A stretch of 53,142 nucleotides of DNA, from IMG/VR virus record IMGVR_UViG_3300042860_002932, positions 1-53,142 of that record; one strand, 5' to 3'. Numbering within the stretch: the first letter of the stretch is position 1; every line of letters starts with the position of its first letter. Source of the stretch: a virus. Shown piece after piece: positions 2,441 to 43,714 of this stretch. Below the pieces are notes generated by a model that saw only the letters and a list, made by a program, of their open reading frames with translations, was not told the DNA's origin and searched no databases. A program made the position numbers and the translations under genes.

Positions 2441-2445
2441 TTTTG

Positions 2446-2517
2446 TCAGGGTAATCAGAATCGAACTGATATCACTTGATTGGAAATCAAATACACTAAC
2501 CGTTGTGCTATACCCCG
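2446..2517 (-). tRNA. tRNA-Gly (UCC)
   Basis: 72 nt. The acceptor stem CGGGGTA/TACCCTG has one G-U pair, and D arm GCAC/GTGT and T arm ATCAG-TTCGATT-CTGAT are present. The anticodon arm TTTGA-TTTCCAA-TCAAG gives anticodon UCC. CCA is not encoded. It is the last tRNA of the array in the direction of transcription. Confidence 0.9.
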
Positions 2518-2686
2518 TTAACCAGTTTGGAACTACCCTCAAAGCCTTACTGGAATTGCTTGGTTTTCAAATTGTTTCCTAATAAAGTTACATTCAGTCT
2601 CGTTAAGTAACTATAAAACAAAACCAAAAAGAACCTTTCGAACGATTCGTTTCGGGCCGGATATTTGACCCATATCTGGGAGTTTG

Positions 2687-2759
2687 AGCAGTAGACTGGA
2701 ATCGAGCCAGTTTCACCGATTTACAAGATCGGGCATCATCCATTAAATGCTTCAACTGC
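2687..2759 (-). tRNA. tRNA-Thr (UGU)
   Basis: 73 nt. The acceptor is GCAGTTG/CTACTGC with one T-T mismatch. The anticodon arm CCGAT-CTTGTAA-ATCGG is perfect and gives UGU. The T arm ACTGG-CTCGATT-CCAGT is intact, and CCA is not encoded. Confidence 0.88.
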
Positions 2760-2768
2760 TTAGTTTTG

Positions 2769-2848
2769 TCGACTTGGAAAGATTCGAACTTTCATTTTCA
2801 ACACCAATTACGAATATCGATCTTATCAGGATCGCTCGGTACAAGTCG
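2769..2848 (-). tRNA. tRNA-Ile (GAU), atypical: no D arm, long variable region
   Basis: The acceptor CGACTTG/CAAGTCG (7 perfect pairs), anticodon arm CGATC-CTGATAA-GATCG (canonical GAU loop) and T arm GAAAG-TTCGAAT-CTTTC are all perfect. Only 7 bases separate the acceptor from the anticodon arm, so no D arm can form there. Instead 24 bases lie between the anticodon arm and the T arm, and they contain the D-loop-like AATTGGTG. Either this is a D-armless tRNA with an extended variable region or a rearranged tRNA; see findings. Confidence 0.7.
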
Positions 2849-2872
2849 TTAATTTATTTTCAGTTTTGATAG

Positions 2873-2945
2873 TACCCACTATCGGAATCGAACCAATACT
2901 TTGCTTGTATGTAAAACAAGTGCCATACCATTAGGCGAAGCGGGT
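2873..2945 (-). tRNA. tRNA-Val (UAC)
   Basis: 73 nt. The acceptor is ACCCGCT/AGTGGGT. The anticodon arm CTTGT-TTTACAT-ACAAG gives UAC. The T arm ATTGG-TTCGATT-CCGAT and discriminator A are present, and CCA is not encoded. Confidence 0.9.
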
Positions 2946-2950
2946 AATTT

Positions 2951-3022
2951 GTGGCTATAATGGGTCTCGAACCACTACTGTCAGATTCAAAATCTGATTT
3001 GCTTCCATTACAACAATTCCCA
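2951..3022 (-). tRNA. tRNA-Gln (UUG), imperfect acceptor
   Basis: The anticodon arm TCAGA-TTTTGAA-TCTGA gives UUG, and the 5' end TGG is typical of tRNA-Gln. The acceptor pairs at positions 1-3 and 6-7 but is mismatched at 4 and 5. The T loop (TTCGAGAC) has 8 bases. It may be a decaying or an unusual tRNA. Confidence 0.65.
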
Positions 3023-3040
3023 TTAAATTTAATATTTTAG

Positions 3041-3129
3041 GGAGTATGACCAGAATCGAACTGGCTTAGATTTTTATATCTTTCAGGGTCACAACCTGAT
3101 TCGTTTCCGACAAACGAGTTACATACTCC
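3041..3129 (-). tRNA. tRNA-His (GUG) with encoded G-1 and extra variable arm
   Basis: The acceptor GAGTATG/CATACTC is perfect. A genomically encoded G at -1 faces C73, the histidine identity pair. The anticodon arm TCAGG-TTGTGAC-CCTGA gives GUG. The variable region is 17 bases and folds as AGAT-ATAAAA-ATCT, whereas normal tRNA-His has about 5 bases. The D arm is a 6-pair hairpin, TCGTTT/AAACGA. Confidence 0.8.
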
Positions 3130-3139
3130 ATTCATTTTG

Positions 3140-3211
3140 CGCCATGCCCTCGATTCGAACGAGGAACCACGATTTTGGAGATCGTTCGGTTACCAGTTAC
3201 CCCAGCACGAC
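3140..3211 (-). tRNA. tRNA-Trp (CCA)
   Basis: 72 nt. The acceptor is GTCGTGC/GCATGGC. The anticodon arm ACGAT-CTCCAAA-ATCGT gives CCA, and the discriminator G is expected for Trp. The T arm CCTCG-TTCGAAT-CGAGG is perfect. Confidence 0.9.
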
Positions 3212-3217
3212 AGTTGA

Positions 3218-3439
3218 TTATAAATATACTTTTTTAAACTTTTTTCTTCCTATACGCTTTATCAAAAACGCTTCGTTTAAATCCGTATCGAGAAAAACCT
3301 GATATCGCTTTCCGTCTCGATCCAAATATTTTGCTTTTGATAATTCCCAATTACAATTCTTCAAAATTTGAAGACTGTCGGAGTCTTGACTAAATACCAA
3401 GATGGGGGATACCAAAAATATAAATATCAATTTTTTCAT
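3218..3439 (-). CDS. Small secreted protein with signal peptide
   Basis: I place the start at the ATG ending at 3439, because the longer open frame reads through tRNA-Asp. The N-terminus MKKLIFIFLVSPILVFSQ is a signal peptide with a probable cut before Q or D. About 55 residues follow with no recognised family. The product probably goes to the periplasm. Confidence 0.65.
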   Translation of the reverse strand: MKKLIFIFLVSPILVFSQDSDSLQILKNCNWELSKAKYLDRDGKRYQVFLDTDLNEAFLIKRIGRKKFKKVYL

Positions 3440-3455
3440 AATCAAAACTTCTTTG

Positions 3456-3528
3456 CAGTCCCGACGGGATTTGAACCCGCATACACCAGTGTGACAGACT
3501 GGCAGTTTAACCATTGTCCTACGGGACT
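3456..3528 (-). tRNA. tRNA-Asp (GUC)
   Basis: 73 nt. The acceptor AGTCCCG/CGGGACT is perfect. The anticodon arm CCAGT-CTGTCAC-ACTGG gives GUC, with discriminator G. CCA is not encoded. Confidence 0.92.
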
Positions 3529-3536
3529 AAACCTTT

Positions 3537-4349
3537 TTATTGTTGATTGACAATCACCGGCGTTTTACCGTCAGTTATAATAACTTTATTGTTGGTACTA
3601 CGAATAGCATCAATCCATTTATCTTGAAGAATTTCCTTAGTCAACCCTTGTGTTTTTACCAAATCTTTTTCTCGATAAATTTTAGCCTTTTCTAATTCCA
3701 TTTTAGCAATTTCAAGTTCATTTCGAGCCTGTTCTGCTTGTTGAATTGTATTGTTTCTATTTTCAATGGCTTTAATCATAGATTCGGGAGGTCTCAATCC
3801 AGAACTCAACGTCAACAAATTGAAGAATTTTCCATTAAATTCGGTTTTCAGTCGAGTTTCTACCGCCAATTCAAATTTAGCCAAATTTTTCAATAACTCA
3901 TCGGTCGAAAATTTTCTTGCTTCTTCCCGGTAAGCATTTAAAATAATCGGAGTTAAAATATTGGTTTCGATATTGTCCATAAACCCTGATATATCTGCCG
4001 GATTAACGTGCTTGTAATTAAAAACAATTTCCGGACCTTTTCCCCTAATGGCTTCGTAAGCGTAATTTGGGTCTACCTTATAGAAGCCGCCATCATTTGT
4101 TGTTACACCGAGTTCTGGCGCATCTCCCTTTTGTTCGAACATGGGAACCTGATATAGTTCTGAGCAGGGACCAAGGGGACCCTGAGCGCCTGTAACAAGT
4201 TTAAAATCGGCAAGACCGTTTTTGCCGCAGTTTTCCATGAGAACACCTTCGAAATTTGGTTCAGGTCGATTACATCCCGTACAACCAGTTTGAAAAATTT
4301 GATAAACGCCCAATAGAGCAAAGAAAATAAAGAACTTAATTTGTTTCAT
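3537..4349 (-). CDS. Prohibitin-like (SPFH/Band 7) lipoprotein
   Basis: 270 residues. A hydrophobic N-terminus ends in FQTGC, a plausible lipobox with Cys23 as the lipidation site. The middle follows the prohibitin/Band 7 pattern (GPxSELYQVP region, YAYEAIRGKGPEIVFNYKHV, then NILTPIILNAYREEARKFSTDELL). A charged coiled coil follows at about residues 195-230 (EQARNELEIAKMELEKAKIYREK). SPFH proteins form rings on membranes, and phage members are of unknown role. It sits alone among tRNA genes. I am fairly sure of the family, not of the function. Confidence 0.75.
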   Translation of the reverse strand: MKQIKFFIFFALLGVYQIFQTGCTGCNRPEPNFEGVLMENCGKNGLADFKLVTGAQGPLGPCSELYQVPMFEQKGDAPELGVTTNDGGFYKVDPNYAYEAIRGKGPEIVFNYKHVNPADISGFMDNIETNILTPIILNAYREEARKFSTDELLKNLAKFELAVETRLKTEFNGKFFNLLTLSSGLRPPESMIKAIENRNNTIQQAEQARNELEIAKMELEKAKIYREKDLVKTQGLTKEILQDKWIDAIRSTNNKVIITDGKTPVIVNQQ

Positions 4350-4370
4350 TTAATGAACTGATTTTGATTC

Positions 4371-4535
4371 TTAAAAGTTAAATGTATAGCGAACATATCT
4401 ATAAAATCCATAAAGTGATAATGGGAGTGTCAGATATGTCAGTTGAAAAATTTTAGATTGCCATAAATAGGTATGACCTATATATAACAAAAAACCCAAT
4501 AATGGTACTGTTAAATATTTTAATTCTTTTTTCAT
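4371..4535 (-). CDS. Small membrane protein, 54 aa
   Basis: I choose the ATG at 4533-4535, because a longer frame would run into tRNA-Leu. The sequence MKKELKYLTVPLLGFLLYIG starts one of two short hydrophobic segments. No family is recognised. Confidence 0.5.
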   Translation of the reverse strand: MKKELKYLTVPLLGFLLYIGHTYLWQSKIFQLTYLTLPLSLYGFYRYVRYTFNF

Positions 4536-4548
4536 TTTTAATGTTTTG

Positions 4549-4628
4549 TGCCCCCATCCGGCCTCGAACCGGAAAGCTCGCGCGGCACCGTTTAAGGATG
4601 CTGTGTTTACCAATTTCACCACAGGGGC
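4549..4628 (-). tRNA. tRNA-Leu (UAA)
   Basis: Class II, 80 nt. The acceptor is GCCCCTG/TGGGGGC. The anticodon arm GCATC-CTTAAAC-GGTGC gives UAA. It has a short variable hairpin, T arm TCCGG-TTCGAGG-CCGGA and discriminator A. Confidence 0.9.
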
Positions 4629-4712
4629 AAATTATTAAATTTCATTTTTGTTGGCTGAACAAATGCAATCCAAAAAGAAATTTACAAAGAAAAAAATCTA
4701 TGTTCAGTTTCG

Positions 4713-4786
4713 TAGTCCATTTCAGATTCGAACTGAAACGTAAGCAATTCCTAAAATTGCCGCCTCTTCCGTTGGGCTAATGGACT
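4713..4786 (-). tRNA. tRNA with Leu anticodon UAG but short variable loop
   Basis: 74 nt. The acceptor AGTCCAT/ATGGACT is perfect, and the anticodon arm GCAAT-TTTAGGA-ATTGC and T arm TTCAG-TTCGAAT-CTGAA are perfect. The anticodon reads UAG, which decodes CUA leucine. The variable loop has only about 6 bases, so this is not a class II tRNA-Leu. Aminoacylation identity is uncertain. Confidence 0.8.
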
Positions 4787-4985
4787 ATTTAAATTTTTTA
4801 AATGATTTGAAAAACATATCCTTTGACATGATTGGTTTAAAATTGCCGTCGATATTTGAAATTTGAATTCCTTTCTCTCCAATTTCGAGAACTCTTACTC
4901 GGAGACCTCGATCAGTATCGGGAAAGGTCGGATCATAAAACCAAATTTCGCCTATTTTTATTTTCGGTTTAAAAAAATTAAACAT
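4785..4985 (-). CDS. Hypothetical protein, 66 aa
   Basis: Small basic protein starting MFNFFKPKIKIGEIWFYD. It has the look of a small SH3-like barrel with several beta strands. The 3' end overlaps the first bases of the adjoining tRNA. Function unknown. Confidence 0.5.
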   Translation of the reverse strand: MFNFFKPKIKIGEIWFYDPTFPDTDRGLRVRVLEIGEKGIQISNIDGNFKPIMSKDMFFKSFKKFK

Positions 4986-5007
4986 ATTTAAACTGCTTAA
5001 ATGTTAG

Positions 5008-5080
5008 TAGGCCGACATGGATTCGAACCATGAACAACGGATTAAAAGTCCGCGATTTTACCAATTGAAACTACCGACCC
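5008..5080 (-). tRNA. tRNA-Lys (UUU)
   Basis: 73 nt. The acceptor GGGTCGG/TCGGCCT has several G-U pairs. The anticodon arm GCGGA-CTTTTAA-TCCGT gives UUU. The T arm CATGG-TTCGAAT-CCATG is perfect. Confidence 0.9.
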
Positions 5081-5097
5081 AATTTTCAATTAAATTC

Positions 5098-5117
5098 AGT
5101 CATTAACTTTTTAATGA
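5098..5117 (-). other. Leader hairpin upstream of tRNA-Lys
   Basis: GTCATTAA and TTAATGAC form an 8-pair stem around a 4-base loop. It lies in the transcribed leader between the promoter at 5160 and tRNA-Lys. Its role is unknown; RNA processing or a stabilising element are options. Confidence 0.4.
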
Positions 5118-5159
5118 CCTTTTTCTTCTGTTTTTTGTTCCAAATGTTTAATTACATTA

Positions 5160-5200
5160 CAAAGGTAAAAAACCTTTTTCAATTTACCAAGTCCATTAAC
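5160..5200 (-). promoter_or_regulatory. Bacteroidota-type promoter
   Basis: The -7 box TACCTTTG is at 5160-5167 and TTGG at 5187-5190, spaced 19 bases, with GTTAATG just upstream. It would fire leftward into tRNA-Lys and the tRNAs beyond it. Confidence 0.65.
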
Positions 5201-5215
5201 ATTTCATTTGGAAAA

Positions 5216-5282
5216 GGATTGGATTTAAGTTCCAAATTTCGGTTTCTAATTGAAAGGTACTGTTCAGAAGAAAATCCAATCC
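5216..5282 (-). other. Long hairpin between promoter and tRNA-Ala
   Basis: A perfect 11-base inverted repeat (GGATTGGATTT at 5216-5226 with its complement at 5272-5282) encloses 45 bases that contain a further small hairpin. It lies 3' of tRNA-Ala and just upstream of the next promoter, so it could be a stable RNA, a processing signal or a transcription stop. Confidence 0.45.
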
Positions 5283-5308
5283 TCTAATCACAAACAACTA
5301 AACAAACG

Positions 5309-5382
5309 TGGACACATTTGGGATTTGAACCCAAGTGATCTTGTTTGCAAAACAAGTGCATAGCCTCTCTGCCAATGGCCCC
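5309..5382 (-). tRNA. tRNA-Ala (UGC)
   Basis: 74 nt. The anticodon arm CTTGT-TTTGCAA-ACAAG gives UGC. The acceptor starts GGGGCCA and retains the G3-U70 pair that defines alanine identity, with mismatches at pairs 4 and 5. The T arm TTGGG-TTCAAAT-CCCAA is perfect. Confidence 0.82.
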
Positions 5383-5387
5383 TAATA

Positions 5388-5450
5388 AAGTCTAATCTTC
5401 AAAGGTTTTTATGAATTTACAAGTTTCGAGTAACCTTTGAAATGTGACTT
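5388..5450 (-). repeat. Hairpin repeat element, copy 1
   Basis: 63 bases nearly identical to 11404-11466, differing by small indels in the loop. AAGTC/GACTT and an 11-pair inner stem containing TTCAAAGG/CCTTTGAA fold it into a long hairpin. It lies between tRNA-Met and tRNA-Ala. A divergent third copy is at 11096-11153. Confidence 0.65.
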
Positions 5451-5455
5451 TTTGG

Positions 5456-5528
5456 TGGCGAGGTCGAGATTTGAACTCGAAGTATAAGATCATGAGTCTT
5501 ATGTGTTAACCAATTACACTACCTCGCT
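5456..5528 (-). tRNA. tRNA-Met (CAU), CCA encoded
   Basis: 73 nt. It has D arm GTGT/ACAC, anticodon arm TAAGA-CTCATGA-TCTTA (CAU) and T arm TCGAG-TTCAAAT-CTCGA. The first acceptor pair is A1-C72 and unpaired; the other six pair. CCA is encoded at 5453-5455. The sequence alone does not tell elongator Met from Ile2 (lysidine); the unpaired 1-72 position recalls initiator tRNAs. Confidence 0.85.
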
Positions 5529-5537
5529 ATATTTCTT

Positions 5538-5693
5538 CTATCGATTTCCTTCAAGATAATCAAACACCATTAAAAATGGCCCTATTACTGGAATGAAATC
5601 TAACATTTTTATTTTTAACCAAGAACCTTCTGCAATTGAAAGTGTGATATAAAAACAAAGTTGAAATAAAAATAATGATAGAAAATAGATCAT
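5538..5693 (-). CDS. Small membrane protein, 51 aa
   Basis: Starts MIYFLSLFLFQLCFYITLS and has a second hydrophobic stretch (MLDFIPVIGPFLMVF), so two membrane segments are likely. It fills the gap between tRNA-Glu and tRNA-Met. No family is recognised. Confidence 0.55.
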   Translation of the reverse strand: MIYFLSLFLFQLCFYITLSIAEGSWLKIKMLDFIPVIGPFLMVFDYLEGNR

Positions 5694-5708
5694 TTTAGTT
5701 TATTTTAG

Positions 5709-5782
5709 TAGAGCGGACGGGGTACGATCCCGCACAGTCAAGATTGAAAATCTTGTTTCTTAGCCAATTTGAATACCGCTCC
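5709..5782 (-). tRNA. tRNA-Glu (UUC)
   Basis: 74 nt. The acceptor is GGAGCGG/CCGCTCT. The anticodon arm CAAGA-TTTTCAA-TCTTG gives UUC. The T loop ATCGTAC departs from the usual TTC start. Confidence 0.88.
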
Positions 5783-5854
5783 AAGTATTTAACCAAAGTA
5801 CCAGCCAGACCTCTCGTTTACTGCCCACCATTGAGGTTGTTTGTTCCACTTTTA

Positions 5855-5880
5855 AGAGCAGCATAGGATTCGAACCTACG
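5855..5880 (-). pseudogene. tRNA 3' half remnant
   Basis: A good T arm (GTAGG-TTCGAAT-CCTAT) is followed by an acceptor 3' strand GCTGCTC. The expected 5' half is not found upstream, where a protein gene begins immediately (stop codon at 5894). It is best read as the remains of a deleted tRNA. Confidence 0.5.
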
Positions 5881-5893
5881 AACATTTGGTTAA

Positions 5894-6094
5894 TTATTTA
5901 TTTGGGTTTTCAATTGAATGAATATTCAACTGATTTAAACTTACCATCACAAATCCGTAACAAAGCACTGATGTTTGAATCGCATCCCAATTTATTGTTT
6001 GAAATAGAGCCAAATCCAATATAAACTTGGCCATTCCCCCAAAACAAAATGCAATTAACGGCATTATTGAAAGTGATAATTTATTTGCTTGCAT
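5894..6094 (-). CDS. Membrane protein, 66 aa, two segments
   Basis: MQANKLSLSIMPLIAFCFGG starts the first hydrophobic segment and VLCYGFVMVSL lies in the second. The stop is close to the tRNA remnant. Function unknown. Confidence 0.55.
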   Translation of the reverse strand: MQANKLSLSIMPLIAFCFGGMAKFILDLALFQTINWDAIQTSVLCYGFVMVSLNQLNIHSIENPNK

Positions 6095-6104
6095 TTTTTA
6101 GATG

Positions 6105-6380
6105 TTAATTACTCACTCTGGTTATTAAAAATTCTTCACAAAAATCTCCAGTATCAGGATAAATCAAATCTATTTTGAATGATTCCGAAGGCCGAACCTT
6201 TGAAAGGTATATACTTCGCGTCATTTCCGTTCCATCTGTAAGTTTACCGGAATAGCCGATGGAATCAAATTCTTTTAGTTCTTCGCGATCCAAGAAATCT
6301 AATTGATCGCCAGATGAACTGATTTTACCCATTACGGTTTTAATTCTGTAAGTTTCAATTTTCATGTTTGTTAATTTCAT
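6105..6380 (-). CDS. Hypothetical protein, 85-91 aa
   Basis: A soluble, beta-rich protein read from a promoter at 6407. Two in-frame ATGs near the start (MKLTNMKIETYRIK) make the exact N-terminus uncertain. No family is recognised. Confidence 0.6.
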   Translation of the reverse strand: MKLTNMKIETYRIKTVMGKISSSGDQLDFLDREELKEFDSIGYSGKLTDGTEMTRSIYLSKVRPSESFKIDLIYPDTGDFCEEFLITRVSN

Positions 6381-6406
6381 TTAAAAACCACAATAAAAAG
6401 ACCTCT

Positions 6407-6440
6407 CAAAGATACAAACTTGTGGTTAGAAAAGCACAAA
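6407..6440 (-). promoter_or_regulatory. Promoter for the 6105-6380 gene
   Basis: TATCTTTG at 6407-6414 is a -7 box, with TTTG at 6437-6440. The spacing of 22 bases is longer than elsewhere in the window. Confidence 0.45.
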
Positions 6441-6460
6441 ACAAAGTTTTATACCCTTCA

Positions 6461-17022: not shown

Positions 17023-17042
17023 TTTTTTAAAAGTTTATTTGT

Positions 17043-17101
17043 TAATTACAGTACAAAAGTAAAACCTAAAAATGAATTAACCAAACACATTAACATTTCA
17101 T
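17043..17101 (-). repeat. Duplicated promoter block, copy 1
   Basis: About 59 bases nearly identical to 17604-17662. It contains the -7 box TACTTTTG (17054-17061), TTTGG (17081-17085) at 19-base spacing and the upstream GTTAATG. One base in the -7 box differs from copy 2, which has TACCTTTG. Confidence 0.7.
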
Positions 17102-17102
17102 T

Positions 17103-17573: not shown

Positions 17574-17603
17574 AGGTTAAGCCCTAACCGGCGGGCCGCC
17601 GTT

Positions 17604-17662
17604 TAATTACAGTACAAAGGTAAAACCTAAAAATGAATTAACCAAACACATTAACATTTCAT
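17604..17662 (-). repeat. Duplicated promoter block, copy 2
   Basis: TACCTTTG is at 17615-17622 and TTTGG at 17642-17646, spaced 19 bases, with tandem GTTAATG boxes. It drives the 17310 and 17103 genes. Compare copy 1 at 17043. Confidence 0.7.
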
Positions 17663-17920
17663 TAACGAAAATTGGTAGTGATCGTTATCAAACCGAAATA
17701 TTTCGCCAGAATCGTATTTAGGGCTAATTGGAAATGCGTGTTCTTCATAACCTTCAAGACAGAAATAATCATCAGCATATTCATCTTTCATAATGCGCTC
17801 AGATTCGAAAATCTCGGGTTCCTGACAATCAGAATGTAAGTTCCAATATTTAAGGATATATTTTCCTTTAATATCGTTTTCTACTATATTGAATAACTCG
17901 TCGACTGTAATGTATTTCAT
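17651..17920 (-). CDS. Hypothetical protein, 89 aa
   Basis: An acidic soluble protein starting MKYITVDELFNIVENDIKGK. Its 3' end overlaps the GTTAATG boxes of the promoter block at 17604. Confidence 0.6.
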   Translation of the reverse strand: MKYITVDELFNIVENDIKGKYILKYWNLHSDCQEPEIFESERIMKDEYADDYFCLEGYEEHAFPISPKYDSGEIFRFDNDHYQFSLMKC

Positions 17921-24362: not shown

Positions 24363-24367
24363 AATAG

Positions 24368-24440
24368 TGGACCGTACTGGACTTGAACCAGTGGCTCTCG
24401 CGTTATGAGCGCGGCACTCTACCAACTGAGTTAACGGTCC
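24368..24440 (-). tRNA. tRNA-Met (CAU)
   Basis: 73 nt. The acceptor GGACCGT/ACGGTCC is perfect, the D arm is ACTC/GAGT and the T arm ACTGG-TTCAAGT-CCAGT is perfect. The anticodon loop CTCATAA gives CAU. Unlike the copy at 5456, CCA is not encoded and pair 1-72 is normal. It stands apart from the main array. It may be elongator Met or Ile2. Confidence 0.9.
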
Positions 24441-30760: not shown

Positions 30761-30920
30761 TCGTCACTGTTTTAATTGCTTCTTTAAATCTTTCTAAAAA
30801 CCAATTCGCTTCAAGTTCACTTTCTTGTGCTTGTAATAAAAAGGATTGTTTTCCTATTGTTATTTTCGGATGCCAACCTTTTAATGATTTTTGAAGTGAA
30901 TATTTAATTTCAGGTTTCAT
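30744..30920 (-). CDS. Hypothetical protein, 58 aa
   Basis: Starts MKPEIKYSLQKSLKGWHPKI; small alpha/beta protein. Its start overlaps the stop of the glycosyltransferase gene by 4 bases. Confidence 0.5.
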   Translation of the reverse strand: MKPEIKYSLQKSLKGWHPKITIGKQSFLLQAQESELEANWFLERFKEAIKTVTNETTT

Positions 30921-32197
30921 TTCAAAGTTATGGGTTCATTTTTACAAACAATCAATTCTTTTTCATACGTTTGAAGTGAACGTATTGTTATTTTTAAATT
31001 TCCGAGTTCAAATTCCCCAAGTTCGTTTGCTTGGGTTATGATATCACTCAAATGTTGAATATTTATAAAGTCAGTTTGATTGAACCTTTGACCGTCAATT
31101 TCAACAATTACGTCGGTTTCACACGCACCATACTCCATCTTTGTTTTCAAATCAAACTTCGTATTATGTTGTTCACGTTTAACATAAGTATCAATAATTT
31201 CTTGTTCCAATTCGACATAAACCAATCTGTCGCACCAAGGTTCTAATGCTGAAATAAAATCATAACCACAATTTCGAAGAATAAAGCCGATATTTCGTCT
31301 ATGTTTAGGCATTATAGGATGATGCCATTCGTCATGTTTCGGAAATGATTGCCATTTCCTGATGAAATTTAACATTGAATTTCTGTTGTTAAATTCCCAT
31401 TCTTCTGAACTTTTGCCCGGAGTTGTTAAATATGGATTAAACCTTGAACCTCTACACGTCATGTGATAACAATATCCTTCACGAGTTTGAACAAATTCAG
31501 TTCCGTTTAATAAAAATCTATTCCACAGATCATCGTCTTCTTTGGATTGTGGTGTAAACAAGTAATCGTGACCGTTTATTTCTAAAAATTCATCTTTACA
31601 AACTGTCCACGGAGCAAAAATTCCAGATGTGGTTCCTTTCAACGGAACATTAAATTTCATAGGTTGATTTGGATTGAAATTACAAGTATATTCCCAGTTA
31701 TCTAATCTTGACCAAACATCTAACTGAGCAAATAAACCGTCCTCATCAAAACTTTCAGGTTCAATTCCAAAATTACCAACTATCTTTTCCTTCCCACCCG
31801 GGTGAAGTGGCGGCTCTATTCGTGTAAGCGACACTATACGGTTTTTTATCAAATTCTCCCCATCATACATCAACTTTTCAATTTCATCCAATGCTCCCGG
31901 ACAAAGATACATATCACAATGCCAAACCATTACCAAATCAGTTTCAACAATGTCTTCGACAATTTTATTGTAAAGAATTGTAAGACCTAACCGTTCTGGT
32001 CCTGAATTGACAATATATTTAAAATAGGGGTCTTTTTTGGAAAGTTCCTCATACCATTCTAATGTTCCATCAGTACAAGCATCAACTGCCGAGCAAATCC
32101 AAACTTCGTGGTTTCCTTGATTCTTCCTAATTGAATCGTAACTCCACTTAAAATATTTTAAGTTATTTCTGTTGGGGACAATAAGTGAAATTTTCAT
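30917..32197 (-). CDS. Family 2-type glycosyltransferase
   Basis: 426 residues. The N-terminal GT-A domain starts MKISLIVPNRNNLKYFKWSY, followed by SAVDACTDGTLEWYEELSKK and a metal-binding DxD-like motif in MVWHCDMYLCPG (about residue 93). The acceptor part has KEDDDLWNRFLLNGTEFVQT. About 130 extra C-terminal residues are not part of the usual domain. It should transfer a sugar from a nucleotide donor; the acceptor is unknown. First member of the sugar-gene group. Confidence 0.82.
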   Translation of the reverse strand: MKISLIVPNRNNLKYFKWSYDSIRKNQGNHEVWICSAVDACTDGTLEWYEELSKKDPYFKYIVNSGPERLGLTILYNKIVEDIVETDLVMVWHCDMYLCPGALDEIEKLMYDGENLIKNRIVSLTRIEPPLHPGGKEKIVGNFGIEPESFDEDGLFAQLDVWSRLDNWEYTCNFNPNQPMKFNVPLKGTTSGIFAPWTVCKDEFLEINGHDYLFTPQSKEDDDLWNRFLLNGTEFVQTREGYCYHMTCRGSRFNPYLTTPGKSSEEWEFNNRNSMLNFIRKWQSFPKHDEWHHPIMPKHRRNIGFILRNCGYDFISALEPWCDRLVYVELEQEIIDTYVKREQHNTKFDLKTKMEYGACETDVIVEIDGQRFNQTDFINIQHLSDIITQANELGEFELGNLKITIRSLQTYEKELIVCKNEPITLK

Positions 32198-38105: not shown

Positions 38106-38267
38106 CTATTTAAAATGACTTTTTATCCAGTTTAAAATGTTATTGTAATTTAAAATAGTCAGCATCAAAATAAACCACACTACACTCCAAATTTCATATT
38201 GAAATGAACCTTCAAATGCAAACAATACTCCTAAAAAATAAAATAGTATAGCAATAATGTTTTTCAT
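38106..38267 (-). CDS. Small membrane protein, 53 aa
   Basis: MKNIIAILFYFLGVLFAFEG begins the first of two membrane segments. Overlaps the stop of the glycosyltransferase-like gene by 4 bases. Confidence 0.5.
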   Translation of the reverse strand: MKNIIAILFYFLGVLFAFEGSFQYEIWSVVWFILMLTILNYNNILNWIKSHFK

Positions 38268-39286
38268 AGTGACTTCGATTTTACCTGTTTAAACAATGTT
38301 TCAAGATTATGTTTCGATTTTTCTTCTAATTCAACCCACCAGTTTCCTTTTTTTTCAGCATTACAAATTCCAGTTGGATTATCTTCATTTAAGATAAACT
38401 TTCGTTTTTGTGGGTGTCTACGGTTATGAACCCGTAAAATGTTTTTGAAATTGAACTGAACAAAGTCATCTCCCATAATCCGTTTGGCGATTCTTAAAAT
38501 TGATTCATCTTCGCCGTGATGGATTAATGAATGGGGCAAAGTTACTCCCGATTTTAAAAGTTCACTTGTAAAAACCAAACAACTTCCATCGGCCTTGGGT
38601 TCAGTCAATGCTTGGACTTGAATTTTATCGGGACTGATATTATTTATTTCATTCATTTGTTCTAAGGACATATAAGATTTTTCAGAGGCAGGATTGTTAA
38701 AAATCCAATTTTCATCATCTTGATATGGAATTGATTCAAATAAAGGATGCGTTATCACGTCCCAACTTTTGTCCCAATTCTTTCTTCCGGCAAAGTTAGC
38801 AACATATTTGGGATATTGGCCGGAAACTTGTTCATGTAAAGTTTCCAAAGCAAATAACGTTTGTTTGGGCCATAGAGAATCCACCTCGTTCCAACAAATA
38901 AAGTCATGTGTATTGGTATATTTCCAACATATATCTCTGCGAGAGTGTGCAATATTATAAAAAGGAACATCATCAAAAATATATGAAATCTTCACATCCA
39001 ATTCAGATGGTAGTTTACCCCATATCTTTCCAAATTGTTCTTTAAATAAAATAAAACCATAGTATTCGTTTATAAATACTCTGCCATTTCCATGCTGTTC
39101 ATAAAATTTATACCAATCTATTTTTTCAAATTTTTGCTGAAAATTAAAACATAAATCTATTGTAATATTTTGTTTATTAGTTATTGGTTCAGTCATCTGA
39201 ATCAGAGATTGAATATGTTCATTGAACATTCCAATTTCATAAAATTGAATTAACGACGAAAATACATATTTATTATTTAATTGCAT
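38264..39286 (-). CDS. GT-A glycosyltransferase-like protein
   Basis: 340 residues. ICWNEVDSLWPKQTLFALET carries a DxD-like acidic motif (about residue 133). The C-terminal LPHSLIHHGEDESILRIAKR fits the acceptor and metal-binding end of GT-A enzymes. The first 40 residues (starting MQLNNKYVFSSLIQFYEIGM) are homologous to an orphan 39-residue fragment at 40255-40374. The start overlaps the stop of the LAGLIDADG gene by 14 bases. Confidence 0.65.
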   Translation of the reverse strand: MQLNNKYVFSSLIQFYEIGMFNEHIQSLIQMTEPITNKQNITIDLCFNFQQKFEKIDWYKFYEQHGNGRVFINEYYGFILFKEQFGKIWGKLPSELDVKISYIFDDVPFYNIAHSRRDICWKYTNTHDFICWNEVDSLWPKQTLFALETLHEQVSGQYPKYVANFAGRKNWDKSWDVITHPLFESIPYQDDENWIFNNPASEKSYMSLEQMNEINNISPDKIQVQALTEPKADGSCLVFTSELLKSGVTLPHSLIHHGEDESILRIAKRIMGDDFVQFNFKNILRVHNRRHPQKRKFILNEDNPTGICNAEKKGNWWVELEEKSKHNLETLFKQVKSKSL

Positions 39287-40070
39287 ATTTTTTTATTATT
39301 CTATATGTATGACTTAAATCATAATTTAACAACTGGGATATTTCTTTTGGTGTTTTTCCGCTATTGTATAATTCTAAACATTGAATTTTTATATTTTGAG
39401 ATTTTTCATGAGAATTGTTATGATTAATATCAATTCGATCCCATTTTCGTTCGAGTAATGGGAGTTTCAGTGCAGTTAAATTAGTCTTAAGAGTTTTTAA
39501 TTCTGAATTAACACCCAATCGCAAAAAACTCATATCTCCCCATATATGTATGGTACTTCTATTTGAAATATATTTTTTAAAAAATTCAAGAATATGTACC
39601 CAATTTTTATGTATTGCTATTGATAAAAATACTCTTTTATCGGACTTAGGTGTCTTGACAATTGATCCGTCCCCGTCTATATAACCTGCAATAAGTGATA
39701 ATATTTGGTTCTTATTAAAATTGCTCTCATAGTCATTTATATCGGGCGGATTATACGTTTTATTCGGTTTAATGTGAAATTTATTTACTATTTGTTTAAC
39801 TACAATCTTGTCGCAAAAACGAATGCGACAACTGGTATTATTACTTGTCTTGGTTTTAACTTCTCTATGATCGATTTCATTTTTAAAATTTACAAATTTT
39901 TTAAATTTAAACAAATGATCATAATCTTTATTATTTATTTCTAATGACATTTGTTGGGAATTTTGCGAAAACCAACCATCCGCTAACAGAAATCCGACCC
40001 AATAAAATGATTCGTTATCGTTTTCCAATAGTTTAGTCAAATCATAATTTGTTTCTTTTTCTTGTTTCAT
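39273..40070 (-). CDS. LAGLIDADG homing endonuclease
   Basis: 265 residues with two LAGLIDADG motifs: VGFLLADGW (about 25-33) and IAGYIDGDGS (about 127-136), each with the catalytic acidic residue. A C-terminal helix-turn-helix (about 225-265: LYNSGKTPKEISQLLNYDLS) resembles a DNA-binding module. It cuts long target sites and spreads by repair. It is free-standing, preceded by a ribbon-helix-helix-like gene with which it overlaps by 29 bases, and has no surrounding intron core that I can see. Confidence 0.88.
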   Translation of the reverse strand: MKQEKETNYDLTKLLENDNESFYWVGFLLADGWFSQNSQQMSLEINNKDYDHLFKFKKFVNFKNEIDHREVKTKTSNNTSCRIRFCDKIVVKQIVNKFHIKPNKTYNPPDINDYESNFNKNQILSLIAGYIDGDGSIVKTPKSDKRVFLSIAIHKNWVHILEFFKKYISNRSTIHIWGDMSFLRLGVNSELKTLKTNLTALKLPLLERKWDRIDINHNNSHEKSQNIKIQCLELYNSGKTPKEISQLLNYDLSHTYRIIKKYAIK

Positions 40071-40221
40071 TTTTTTGAATTTCCTTTATAGTTTTTATAA
40101 GAAGATTGCTAACAAATTGATTAACTTTTAGAGAATTCTGTTTACAATATTCTTTAACAATCGAATGACATTCAACTGACACTCTAAAACTTTTCAATTC
40201 ATCGATTTCTTCTTGTTTCAT
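40042..40221 (-). CDS. Ribbon-helix-helix-like small protein, cassette 1
   Basis: 59 residues starting MKQEEIDELKSFRVSVECHS. A short strand (KSFRVSV) is followed by two helices (SIVKEYCKQN and NQFVSNLLIKTIKE), the layout of MetJ/Arc-type DNA-binding proteins. Its end overlaps the LAGLIDADG start by 29 bases. A palindromic leader overlaps its start codon, suggesting that it controls its own cassette. Compare 52744-52911. Confidence 0.6.
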   Translation of the reverse strand: MKQEEIDELKSFRVSVECHSIVKEYCKQNSLKVNQFVSNLLIKTIKEIQKNETRKRNKL

Positions 40222-40245
40222 ATACTATAAGTATCCAAAATTTTA
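40219..40245 (-). promoter_or_regulatory. Palindromic leader / possible operator, cassette 1
   Basis: On the minus strand GGATACTTATAGTAT precedes the ATG. ATACT and AGTAT form a perfect inverted repeat. The block, including GTAAAATTT further upstream, recurs at 52909-52935. It is probably the operator of the ribbon-helix-helix protein. Confidence 0.5.
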
Positions 40246-40254
40246 CAAAAAAAG

Positions 40255-40374
40255 TTACAAATTATTTTCAATTCCTTCCAACATTTGTTGGCAAGAACGT
40301 AAATGCTTATCCAACATTTCAATTTCGTAAAACTGAACTTGGGTTCCGATGAGGTAAGTGTTTTTTAATTTCAT
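40255..40374 (-). pseudogene. Truncated 5' fragment of a glycosyltransferase-type gene
   Basis: A 39-residue frame starting MKLKNTYLIGTQVQFYEIEM, homologous to the first 40 residues of the complete gene at 38264-39286 (both share QFYEI followed by a matching helix). It ends at a stop just upstream of the endonuclease cassette leader. It is either the original 5' end of the gene, cut off by cassette insertion, or what remains of a tandem paralogue. Confidence 0.7.
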
Positions 40375-40376
40375 TT

Positions 40377-40637
40377 TTAAATCATTTTACAGCCAGAATA
40401 GGCTTCATAATTGTAAAGATTGGGGGCATAATGAAGATATTCTTCATGAACTGCATAATTAATCACTTCTCCGTTTGACAAACGTTCTGATTTCCATTCC
40501 CATTGGCCGTATTCATTACGTTGCGGCACTGTCAAAACTTTGGTTTTTATACAGCAACCATATTCATATTCGTAATGAATATCGCCAATTTTTATGCCTT
40601 GAACCTCGACATCACCCTTTGTAAAAATTCTATTCAT
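40377..40637 (-). CDS. Hypothetical protein, 86 aa
   Basis: Starts MNRIFTKGDVEVQGIKIGDI; beta-rich with many tyrosines. Overlaps the secreted protein gene by 8 bases. Confidence 0.55.
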   Translation of the reverse strand: MNRIFTKGDVEVQGIKIGDIHYEYEYGCCIKTKVLTVPQRNEYGQWEWKSERLSNGEVINYAVHEEYLHYAPNLYNYEAYSGCKMI

Positions 40638-41541: not shown

Positions 41542-41949
41542 TTAAAAATTATTTAATATGTCCCAAAATTCAACAGGGAGATGAATGTTTTTATTTGATA
41601 TTGCAATATGAAATAATGGTGCGATTTCTTCTGACGAATAACCACTTAAACCACAACCAATTTTGGTTACTAAGAATATTTTATCAGGATTTTGTTTTGC
41701 ATATTCAACAAAGATTTTAACATAAGGTTCGATTTCATTTATTGAAAGAACCTTCAAATTTCTATCCTTAGTCGGAATTGCATAACATTCGCCTGTTGGG
41801 CCAAATCCAACGCCGTATTCTGCTCCAAATTGATTTTTAGCATTTAAGGCTGCACCTAATCCGTGCTTTCCTGCTAAGTTCGAACCAAATACGAAAATCT
41901 CGTTTGGTTTGAGTTCAGTTATATTTGGATGAGTTATTCTATTAATCAT
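41542..41949 (-). CDS. Macro-domain-like protein (A1S_2505 phage type)
   Basis: 135 residues. NEIFVFGSNLAGKHGLGAAL, then YGVGFGPTGECYAIPTKDRN and FLVTKIGCGLSGYSSEEIAP are the signature of the phage-associated A1S_2505 family, which has a macro-domain fold. Macro domains bind ADP-ribose and related nucleotides; some remove ADP-ribose from targets. Its exact substrate is not known. Confidence 0.8.
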   Translation of the reverse strand: MINRITHPNITELKPNEIFVFGSNLAGKHGLGAALNAKNQFGAEYGVGFGPTGECYAIPTKDRNLKVLSINEIEPYVKIFVEYAKQNPDKIFLVTKIGCGLSGYSSEEIAPLFHIAISNKNIHLPVEFWDILNNF

Positions 41950-42576: not shown

Positions 42577-42749
42577 GTTAGAATAACCAAATTAAAATGT
42601 AATAGAATTCCAACCATTGCGCAAAATGTTGACAATGTACTTGTAATGGTACAAATAAATGCTCCGAATAAAGTTTCTTCATTAGATTTAAAGATTTTAT
42701 ACGAATTTACAAGTCCGATAAATGGAATTAACGATATGAAAATGTTCAT
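42573..42749 (-). CDS. Small membrane protein, 58 aa
   Basis: MNIFISLIPFIGLVNSYKIF and a second segment (TSTLSTFCAMVGILLHFNLV). Overlaps both neighbours by 4 bases. Confidence 0.55.
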   Translation of the reverse strand: MNIFISLIPFIGLVNSYKIFKSNEETLFGAFICTITSTLSTFCAMVGILLHFNLVILT

Positions 42750-43714
42750 AATCCTAACTTTTGTTTGACAAGTGAATAATTGTAACTAAAAGGGTATTTA
42801 GAATTTACTGGTAGACCTAATGCTTCGCCTAAACGCAAAATTGTCGGTTTCTTAACTGCATAAAGTTCTTTACTTGTTTTAAAAAGAACCTTTGCAGCAG
42901 TTTCCCAATCAACTGTCGATGGAGTGGGAGGAACAGGAACCGAACCATTATCAAACTTAACTTCTTCAATGCACCAAAAATCATCAGCCTCGTTTGAATT
43001 TAAAGCAAATGAATAAGGCATCCAGAACAAACCTTCCTCCCCCCAACTTGTACCCCAACTATTTTGAATTAAAAAGCATTTTTTTGAGTCAGAAAAACCA
43101 ATAATTGTAACCGCGTGTCCTCCCAATAGTCGATCTCCACGTTTTGGTAGAGGCATTATTCCAGTAGTCGACTCCCAACTTCCGTAAAAACTTTGATAAA
43201 CGTTGAAACCAAAACTTACAGCAGCGCCACTCAAAAGCGTTTGTTTTATTTTAGGTTCATTCTGATCAACACTTGCATATTTGACGGCGACATTTTTTAA
43301 ACCATCTTCATATACATTGGGAGTTGGTTCTTTGGTCAAGGCAGAAAGCGTATCCTGATATGGCCATAAACTTTCATTGGCCAAGCCCCACTTATTCAAT
43401 GCTTTGAATCCGTCCCTAATATAGGCACCCGAATCTTCCCCTTCCCAACCTTGAAGTTTTCTTGCATTATAATATTCAAATAGACGCGACGGTTCGAATT
43501 TAAAATCGTTTGTCACTTGCGCAACCTCGTAACGAAAACAAGCGCAAGCACTATTGGAAACACACGAGCCAATATTTCCTTGGTCGTATATGGGAATCTT
43601 TCTATCCAACTCAAATTCACTTGGAAGTGAAACGGGTGCAGATAAATGTCTTACTGATTTTAAATCACGCTCGTCTTTTGGCTGACGCTGCCAATTAAGA
43701 ATTCTGGTTTGCAA
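42746..43714 (-). CDS. Papain-like (C1A) cysteine peptidase
   Basis: 322 residues. The catalytic residues are all present: Q45 of the oxyanion hole and C51 in YDQGNIGSCVSNSACACF, H200 in LLGGHAVTIIGF, and N218 in IQNSWGTSWGEEGLF. There is no signal peptide and no long prodomain. A PVPPTPST linker leads to a C-terminal domain of about 65 residues (WETAAKVLFKTSKELYAVKK) that may target it. C1A peptidases are uncommon in phages. It may act on the host or on virion proteins. Confidence 0.85.
   Translation of the reverse strand: MQTRILNWQRQPKDERDLKSVRHLSAPVSLPSEFELDRKIPIYDQGNIGSCVSNSACACFRYEVAQVTNDFKFEPSRLFEYYNARKLQGWEGEDSGAYIRDGFKALNKWGLANESLWPYQDTLSALTKEPTPNVYEDGLKNVAVKYASVDQNEPKIKQTLLSGAAVSFGFNVYQSFYGSWESTTGIMPLPKRGDRLLGGHAVTIIGFSDSKKCFLIQNSWGTSWGEEGLFWMPYSFALNSNEADDFWCIEEVKFDNGSVPVPPTPSTVDWETAAKVLFKTSKELYAVKKPTILRLGEALGLPVNSKYPFSYNYSLVKQKLGL

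Follow-up and report, generated by a model that had tools for sequence, protein, structure and literature searches.

A LAGLIDADG endonuclease cassette between a severed 5' end and a complete glycosyltransferase gene in an uncultured phage: a candidate case of gene-end replacement

In the genome of an uncultured tailed phage, a gene for a homing-endonuclease-like protein lies between a short 5' fragment of a glycosyltransferase gene and a complete gene of the same family. This arrangement raises the question of how the locus came to hold two 5' ends of one kind of gene, and whether the endonuclease had a part in it. The window analysed here is the whole stretch of 53,142 nt from IMG/VR record IMGVR_UViG_3300042860_002932. 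Read along the minus strand, the locus has the following order:

40377-40637, minus strand: gene directly upstream of the fragment, phrog_11618 (E 3.9e-8), recipient-side flank in the reading favoured below
40255-40374, minus strand: 39-codon 5' fragment of a GT-A glycosyltransferase gene, recognised by the family HMM; presumed recipient 5' end, cut at codon 38
40042-40221, minus strand: Arc/ribbon-helix-helix (RHH)-like ORF, 59 aa; weak match to the phrog_582 Arc-like repressor (E 0.013)
39273-40070, minus strand: LAGLIDADG homing-endonuclease-like gene, 265 aa, with two motifs and a C-terminal helix-turn-helix
38264-39286, minus strand: complete glycosyltransferase gene encoding 340 aa, with a 5' end of its own; predicted GT-A fold (family alignment, AlphaFold)

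Two further intervals overlap these features:

39287-40254, minus strand: 968-bp insert from the fragment's stop to the ATG of the complete gene, comprising the RHH ORF and nearly the whole LAGLIDADG gene
38879-39286, minus strand: 5' tract covering codons 1 to about 136 of the complete gene; AT-rich, more divergent, with a 15-aa insertion

A reading made from the sequence only had given these coordinates for the fragment, the cassette and the complete gene, and they are correct; the LAGLIDADG cassette does lie between fragment and gene, and the Arc/RHH-like ORF was found there as well. Two further IMG/VR contigs (G001 and G002) share the identical arrangement with 100% identity over the locus, which is thus no artefact of a single assembly. 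The record IMGVR_UViG_3300036719_003459 (L017) represents the same phage in a further sample; it differs at 19 positions over 20 kb and at 0 in the 13 kb around the cassette. The phrog_11618 gene has relatives of 54-59% identity in other large phage contigs, where it occurs without the glycosyltransferase.

The locus is part of a long glycan-synthesis cluster (30917-51869, minus strand) with GT2, GT34-like, epimerase, FAD oxidoreductase and GT-A genes; its order resembles that of uncultured phages, and among named phages the nearest for one gene is Flavobacterium phage immuto (40% identity). Nearby are a papain-like cysteine peptidase gene (phrog_16701, 42746-43714, minus strand) and a gene for a conserved phrog_2072 protein (41542-41949, minus strand). 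Elsewhere, the window carries an array of 17 tRNA genes over 9 kb (2445-11392, minus strand), one more tRNA gene, for tRNA-Met, at 24367-24440, and a 61-base repeat with 98% identity between its copies at 17042-17102 and 17603-17663, seen in the contig comparison.

The product of the LAGLIDADG gene matches PF14528 (8.2e-7), HTH_23 (1.5e-4) and phrog_4645 'endonuclease' (2.9e-23), contains both motifs (GFLLADGW and IAGYIDGDG) and gives weak I-CreI-like matches. The gene is real and, as judged from these features, reads as an intact putative endonuclease; a single-sequence structure model reached a pLDDT of 39.5, too poor for use. The RHH-like ORF overlaps the start of the endonuclease gene by 29 nt, and no match to it was found among phages. 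Searching for relatives of the cassette with P0002 returned only the two identical contigs and 0 loci of the glycosyltransferase family. A group I intron was rejected, with no Rfam intron at any useful score, and so was an intein, as the ORFs are separate, with intervening stops and no in-frame extein fusion. A second homing-endonuclease-like gene is present in the window at 52056-52772 (minus strand); it is GIY-YIG/SegE-like with NUMOD3 (PF07460 5.8e-10, PF19835 6.3e-5).

The fragment had been proposed to be homologous to the 5' end of the complete gene, which is borne out by pairwise alignment and, independently, by a family HMM. Its 39 residues align with residues 1-37 of the 340-aa product, with 17 of 37 identical (46%) and a BLOSUM62 score of 89, compared with a mean of 25.7 (sd 4.0) and a maximum of 45 for 2000 shuffled controls. 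The family HMM, built from about 70 members with both window sequences left out, assigns the fragment 42.6 bits (E 5.4e-12, model positions 1-38) and the complete gene 336 bits; in a six-frame scan of the window it detected no family pieces other than these two. The fragment is up to 59% identical to relatives such as L027, compared with 46% to the N-terminus of the adjacent complete gene, and trees on 38-64 columns are too short to resolve its exact placement. On the AlphaFold model of the complete gene, the fragment spans strand beta1 (residues 7-14) and helix alpha1 (residues 15-32) only, probably the first strand and first helix of the nucleotide-binding half. As only this Rossmann beta1-alpha1 unit is encoded, the model suggests that the fragment cannot work as an enzyme alone.

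The complete gene had no Pfam, NCBIfam or PDB sequence matches and no significant PHROG match. Its AlphaFold model, computed from an alignment with 31 relatives, has a pLDDT of 90.9, and VIA-align of the model gave Z of about 16 to GT2/GT27-type enzymes (AvpGT, SpsA, GalNAc-T, TarS-type); the gene product is thus, according to the model, a GT-A fold glycosyltransferase. The DXD-like acidic motif E134-x-D136 is invariant across 32 members. Because the window copy keeps the family-invariant residues E134, D136, D260 and H287, all of catalytic type, the enzyme is plausibly active. It is without the nearly invariant G10 and the family's usual E19, and it forms a long branch throughout the family tree.

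The family was first reached with a degenerate DNA pattern for KNIL-x-VHNR that gave 44 loci, all but one of them family-encoding or the window's own contigs. More loci were added by an alignment scan and then by a scan with the neighbouring glycosyltransferase (30917-32197), bringing the total to 121 loci, or 91 distinct alleles once duplicates were removed. The analysis thereby reveals a widespread, so far nameless family of phage GT-A glycosyltransferases with a KNIL[RK]VHNR signature (for example L021:3964-4911, L048:39-1004 and L098:8001-8936); none of 32 members tested had a PHROG match, and queries P0001, L098 and L050 found 0 members among INPHARED phages. The nearest relatives are only 42-47% identical to the window gene. 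Single-protein scans for relatives returned only the two identical contigs, two further contig scans returned none, and a 64-aa chimeric probe gave chance matches only. In the collections searched, no near cassette-free relative, empty site or donor allele was found.

Within the flanks examined, the gene is single copy in all 121 loci, and in none of them is there a severed 5' fragment or a protein related to the LAGLIDADG one. The sequence-only reading had predicted that relatives lacking the cassette would carry one gene with a 5' end like the fragment and a body like 38264-39286, and this is what they carry, the body being 49% identical to that of the window gene. Two full tandem paralogues, which it named as the alternative outcome, are absent from the relatives seen, as every locus has a single copy. 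In the closest loci, L021 and L030, homologues of window genes 44796, 47348, 34012 and 30917 surround the gene in largely the same order, so that the window copy occupies the family's usual place. The 25 commonest Pfam families among upstream neighbours in 68 relatives include epimerase, methyltransferase and GT8, and no endonuclease family is among them.

As the sequence-only reading had noted, the endonuclease gene ends inside the next gene, its stop overlapping the first 14 nt of the complete gene. Among 42 distinct 5' ends of the family, 13 likewise reach their first stop in the endonuclease's frame at exactly nt 14, and in several relatives another upstream gene overlaps the glycosyltransferase start by 14 or 17 nt. 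The overlap is ordinary: the endonuclease frame runs into the gene and ends where the family's own 5' sequence supplies a stop. Since the stop at nt 14 recurs across family 5' ends, it marks no special repair of the frame, and the proposal that the insertion restored a reading frame has to be dropped; the glycosyltransferase gene is whole from its ATG onwards and fused to nothing, and an overlap of this kind is usual in the family.

The two 5' ends differ in how closely they follow the family. Mean identity to the close group is 51% for the fragment and 45% for the complete gene's own 5' end, and the family HMM, applied leave-one-out for the relatives, gives the fragment 42.9 bits and residues 1-38 of the gene 36.8 bits, below all tested relatives with a complete 5' end. 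By its sequence, the fragment thus resembles the family no less than does the complete gene's own 5' end. When neutral decay was simulated, at least 42 bits were retained in 73% of runs at 0.05 substitutions per site, 27% at 0.1 and 0.7% at 0.2; on this simulation, selection on the fragment can have ceased no more than about 0.1-0.15 substitutions per site ago. The fragment was severed recently, or it is still under selection. Fragment and gene 5' end share 59.6% of their bases; the 40% that differ correspond to about 0.58 substitutions per site by Jukes-Cantor. Because this divergence exceeds the simulated neutral lifetime of the stub, the two 5' ends were separate alleles before the cut. The older divergence therefore speaks against a duplication made by the insertion. 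The candidates that remain are a donor allele and an old paralogue, and we favour the donor because no relative with two copies was seen.

The explanation that we prefer, and to which we give somewhat better than even chances, is that a donor carrying the cassette served as template for mending a break near codon 38, so that the recipient's 5' end was left as a relic and the complete gene received its start from the donor. The cassette, a small RHH ORF with a free-standing LAGLIDADG endonuclease gene, would have entered a single-copy glycosyltransferase gene through break repair. In a co-infecting donor, the endonuclease gene would have stood directly before a complete, divergent allele of the same glycosyltransferase, and the enzyme, if active, would have cut the recipient's cassette-free gene near codon 38. 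On the right side, repair would have relied on homology within the gene or past it; on the left side, the recipient would have been joined to donor sequence upstream of the cassette with short or no homology. In the recipient, the genes upstream would thus stay in place and codons 1-38 would persist as a relic, while the cassette would arrive together with a complete gene derived from the donor at its 5' end or possibly throughout. The differing 5' end would render the new allele resistant to the enzyme.

If the donor tract ended within the gene, the complete gene would be a chimera, and some features point that way. Codons 1 to about 136 are a possible donor-derived tract: a change-point in divergence lies near residue 136 against the close group (p 0.065) and at residue 171 against the wider reference with all relatives (p 0.005), and GC3 in the first 120 codons is low, 0.175 versus 0.291 (z -2.36), the most extreme value among 17 window genes. 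Maximum-likelihood placement puts the N-terminus and the body of the gene in the same broad group, and the group-affinity statistic for the gene is no more extreme than that for the ordinary relative L062. The raised 5' divergence could also be explained by fast evolution, the gene being a long branch throughout. We do not claim a chimera, as the placement is congruent, the affinity unremarkable and the whole gene on a long branch; the donor tract may end inside the complete gene or beyond it. Of the original proposal that the cassette inserted with its own version of the 5' end, the single-gene relatives and their fragment-like 5' ends speak in favour, whereas the restored frame is not supported, and neither is the idea that the 5' end alone is foreign, for which the change-points and GC3 argue weakly.

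Three other histories have to be weighed against repair from a donor. The locus might once have held two tandem paralogues, of which the upstream one was cut to 38 codons at or after the arrival of the cassette while the downstream one survived unchanged. The congruence, within resolution, of the gene's N-terminus and body would fit this, as would the fact that the fragment is closer to L027, L048 and L055 and the gene body nearest to L021, as expected of two paralogues. We nevertheless regard it as unlikely, as a second copy is seen in none of the 121 loci (91 alleles, flanks examined), the 69.6-kb contig G002 contains no second full copy of the glycosyltransferase, and the family HMM found no remnant of an upstream body in the window. 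A duplication of one gene's 5' end by the insertion itself, with later divergence of the copies, appears very improbable: 22 of 25 bases match in one stretch of the two 5' ends, but a neutral stub would be unrecognisable by the time 40% of its bases had diverged, and this one is nearer to other phages' genes, such as that of L027, than to its neighbour.

Alternatively, ordinary recombination in a modular glycan-synthesis cluster may have swapped the allele and left a stub, with the endonuclease a passenger or a separate arrival. Such clusters in the neighbourhood are highly variable, and a control scan of about 190 related loci for short ORFs homologous to a longer neighbour 0.3-3 kb away found, besides the window locus, one such pair. 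In L050 (7443-9239, minus strand), a 101-aa epimerase 5' fragment and a complete epimerase stand on either side of a 196-aa methyltransferase-type gene. Fragment and epimerase N-terminus agree at 81% of residues over 68 aa, and the layout is that of the window locus except that an endonuclease is absent. Against this explanation, there are only these 2 pairs in the scan, and the entire interval from stub to gene in the window is the cassette alone; we consider it rather improbable. As L050 demonstrates that a stub and a complete gene can form without homing, we place repair from a donor only a little above even. Bolder, and in our view doubtful though worth stating, is the idea that the mobile unit consists of the endonuclease together with a resistant replacement 5' coding end, so that each homing event swaps the N-terminus of the glycosyltransferase and leaves a stub. 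If this were true, a selfish gene would drive the evolution of a phage sugar-modifying enzyme.

Free-standing endonucleases of T4-like phages, including mobE in nrdA of Aeh1, resemble the window gene in lying at or in a gene with short ORF overlaps, and as with them, co-conversion of flanks would be expected (PMC2988022). In T4, break repair that is illegitimate on one side and leaves microhomology junctions is documented, as is co-conversion caused by free-standing endonucleases (PMC2988022). The T4 cases in that review are GIY-YIG or HNH enzymes, whereas the window encodes a LAGLIDADG protein, and Aeh1 mobE leaves two working gene pieces where the window has a short relic and a complete gene (PMC2988022). 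A phage example of gene-end replacement by an endonuclease was not found in the literature searched, from which most subscription journals were absent.

Parallels also come from fungi. In the WHO elements of Torulaspora and Lachancea yeasts, full-length FBA1 is followed by a homing endonuclease gene and then by a fragment of the FBA1 3' end; homing probably exchanges this end, so that the former one persists as a fragment and the new allele is resistant (Coughlan et al. 2020, PMC7282813). The window endonuclease is likewise flanked by a complete gene, its presumed target, and a piece of one end of such a gene, although in the phage it is the 5' end and the cassette is upstream, whereas WHO elements lie downstream. 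WHO proteins are HO-related and intein-like with a zinc finger, while the window endonuclease has a C-terminal helix-turn-helix and a preceding RHH-like ORF; chimerism and cleavage by WHO were established with sister alleles and experiments, while our locus is known from its sequence. The sequence-only reading had pointed to a fungal mitochondrial endonuclease element that carries a replacement coding end, and this corresponds to the mORF hybrids of Allomyces macrogynus (atp6) and Glomus sp. (atp6, atp9, cox2, nad3), in which an inserted foreign C-terminus is followed by an endonuclease ORF (LAGLIDADG in Glomus atp6) and by what remains of the native C-terminus (PMC3630166). The two ends have low identity in both systems (63.5% of nucleotides for Glomus atp6, 59.6% in the window), but mORFs are all carboxy-terminal and mitochondrial, while the window has an amino-terminal end in a phage. 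By analogy, the window locus looks like a mirror image, in a phage, of these yeast and fungal end-replacing elements. If this is right, selfish endonucleases could reshape phage glycan enzymes, gene stubs beside phage endonuclease genes could be read as cut-site footprints, and gene-end replacement by homing elements would extend past yeast, fungal mitochondria and 3' ends.
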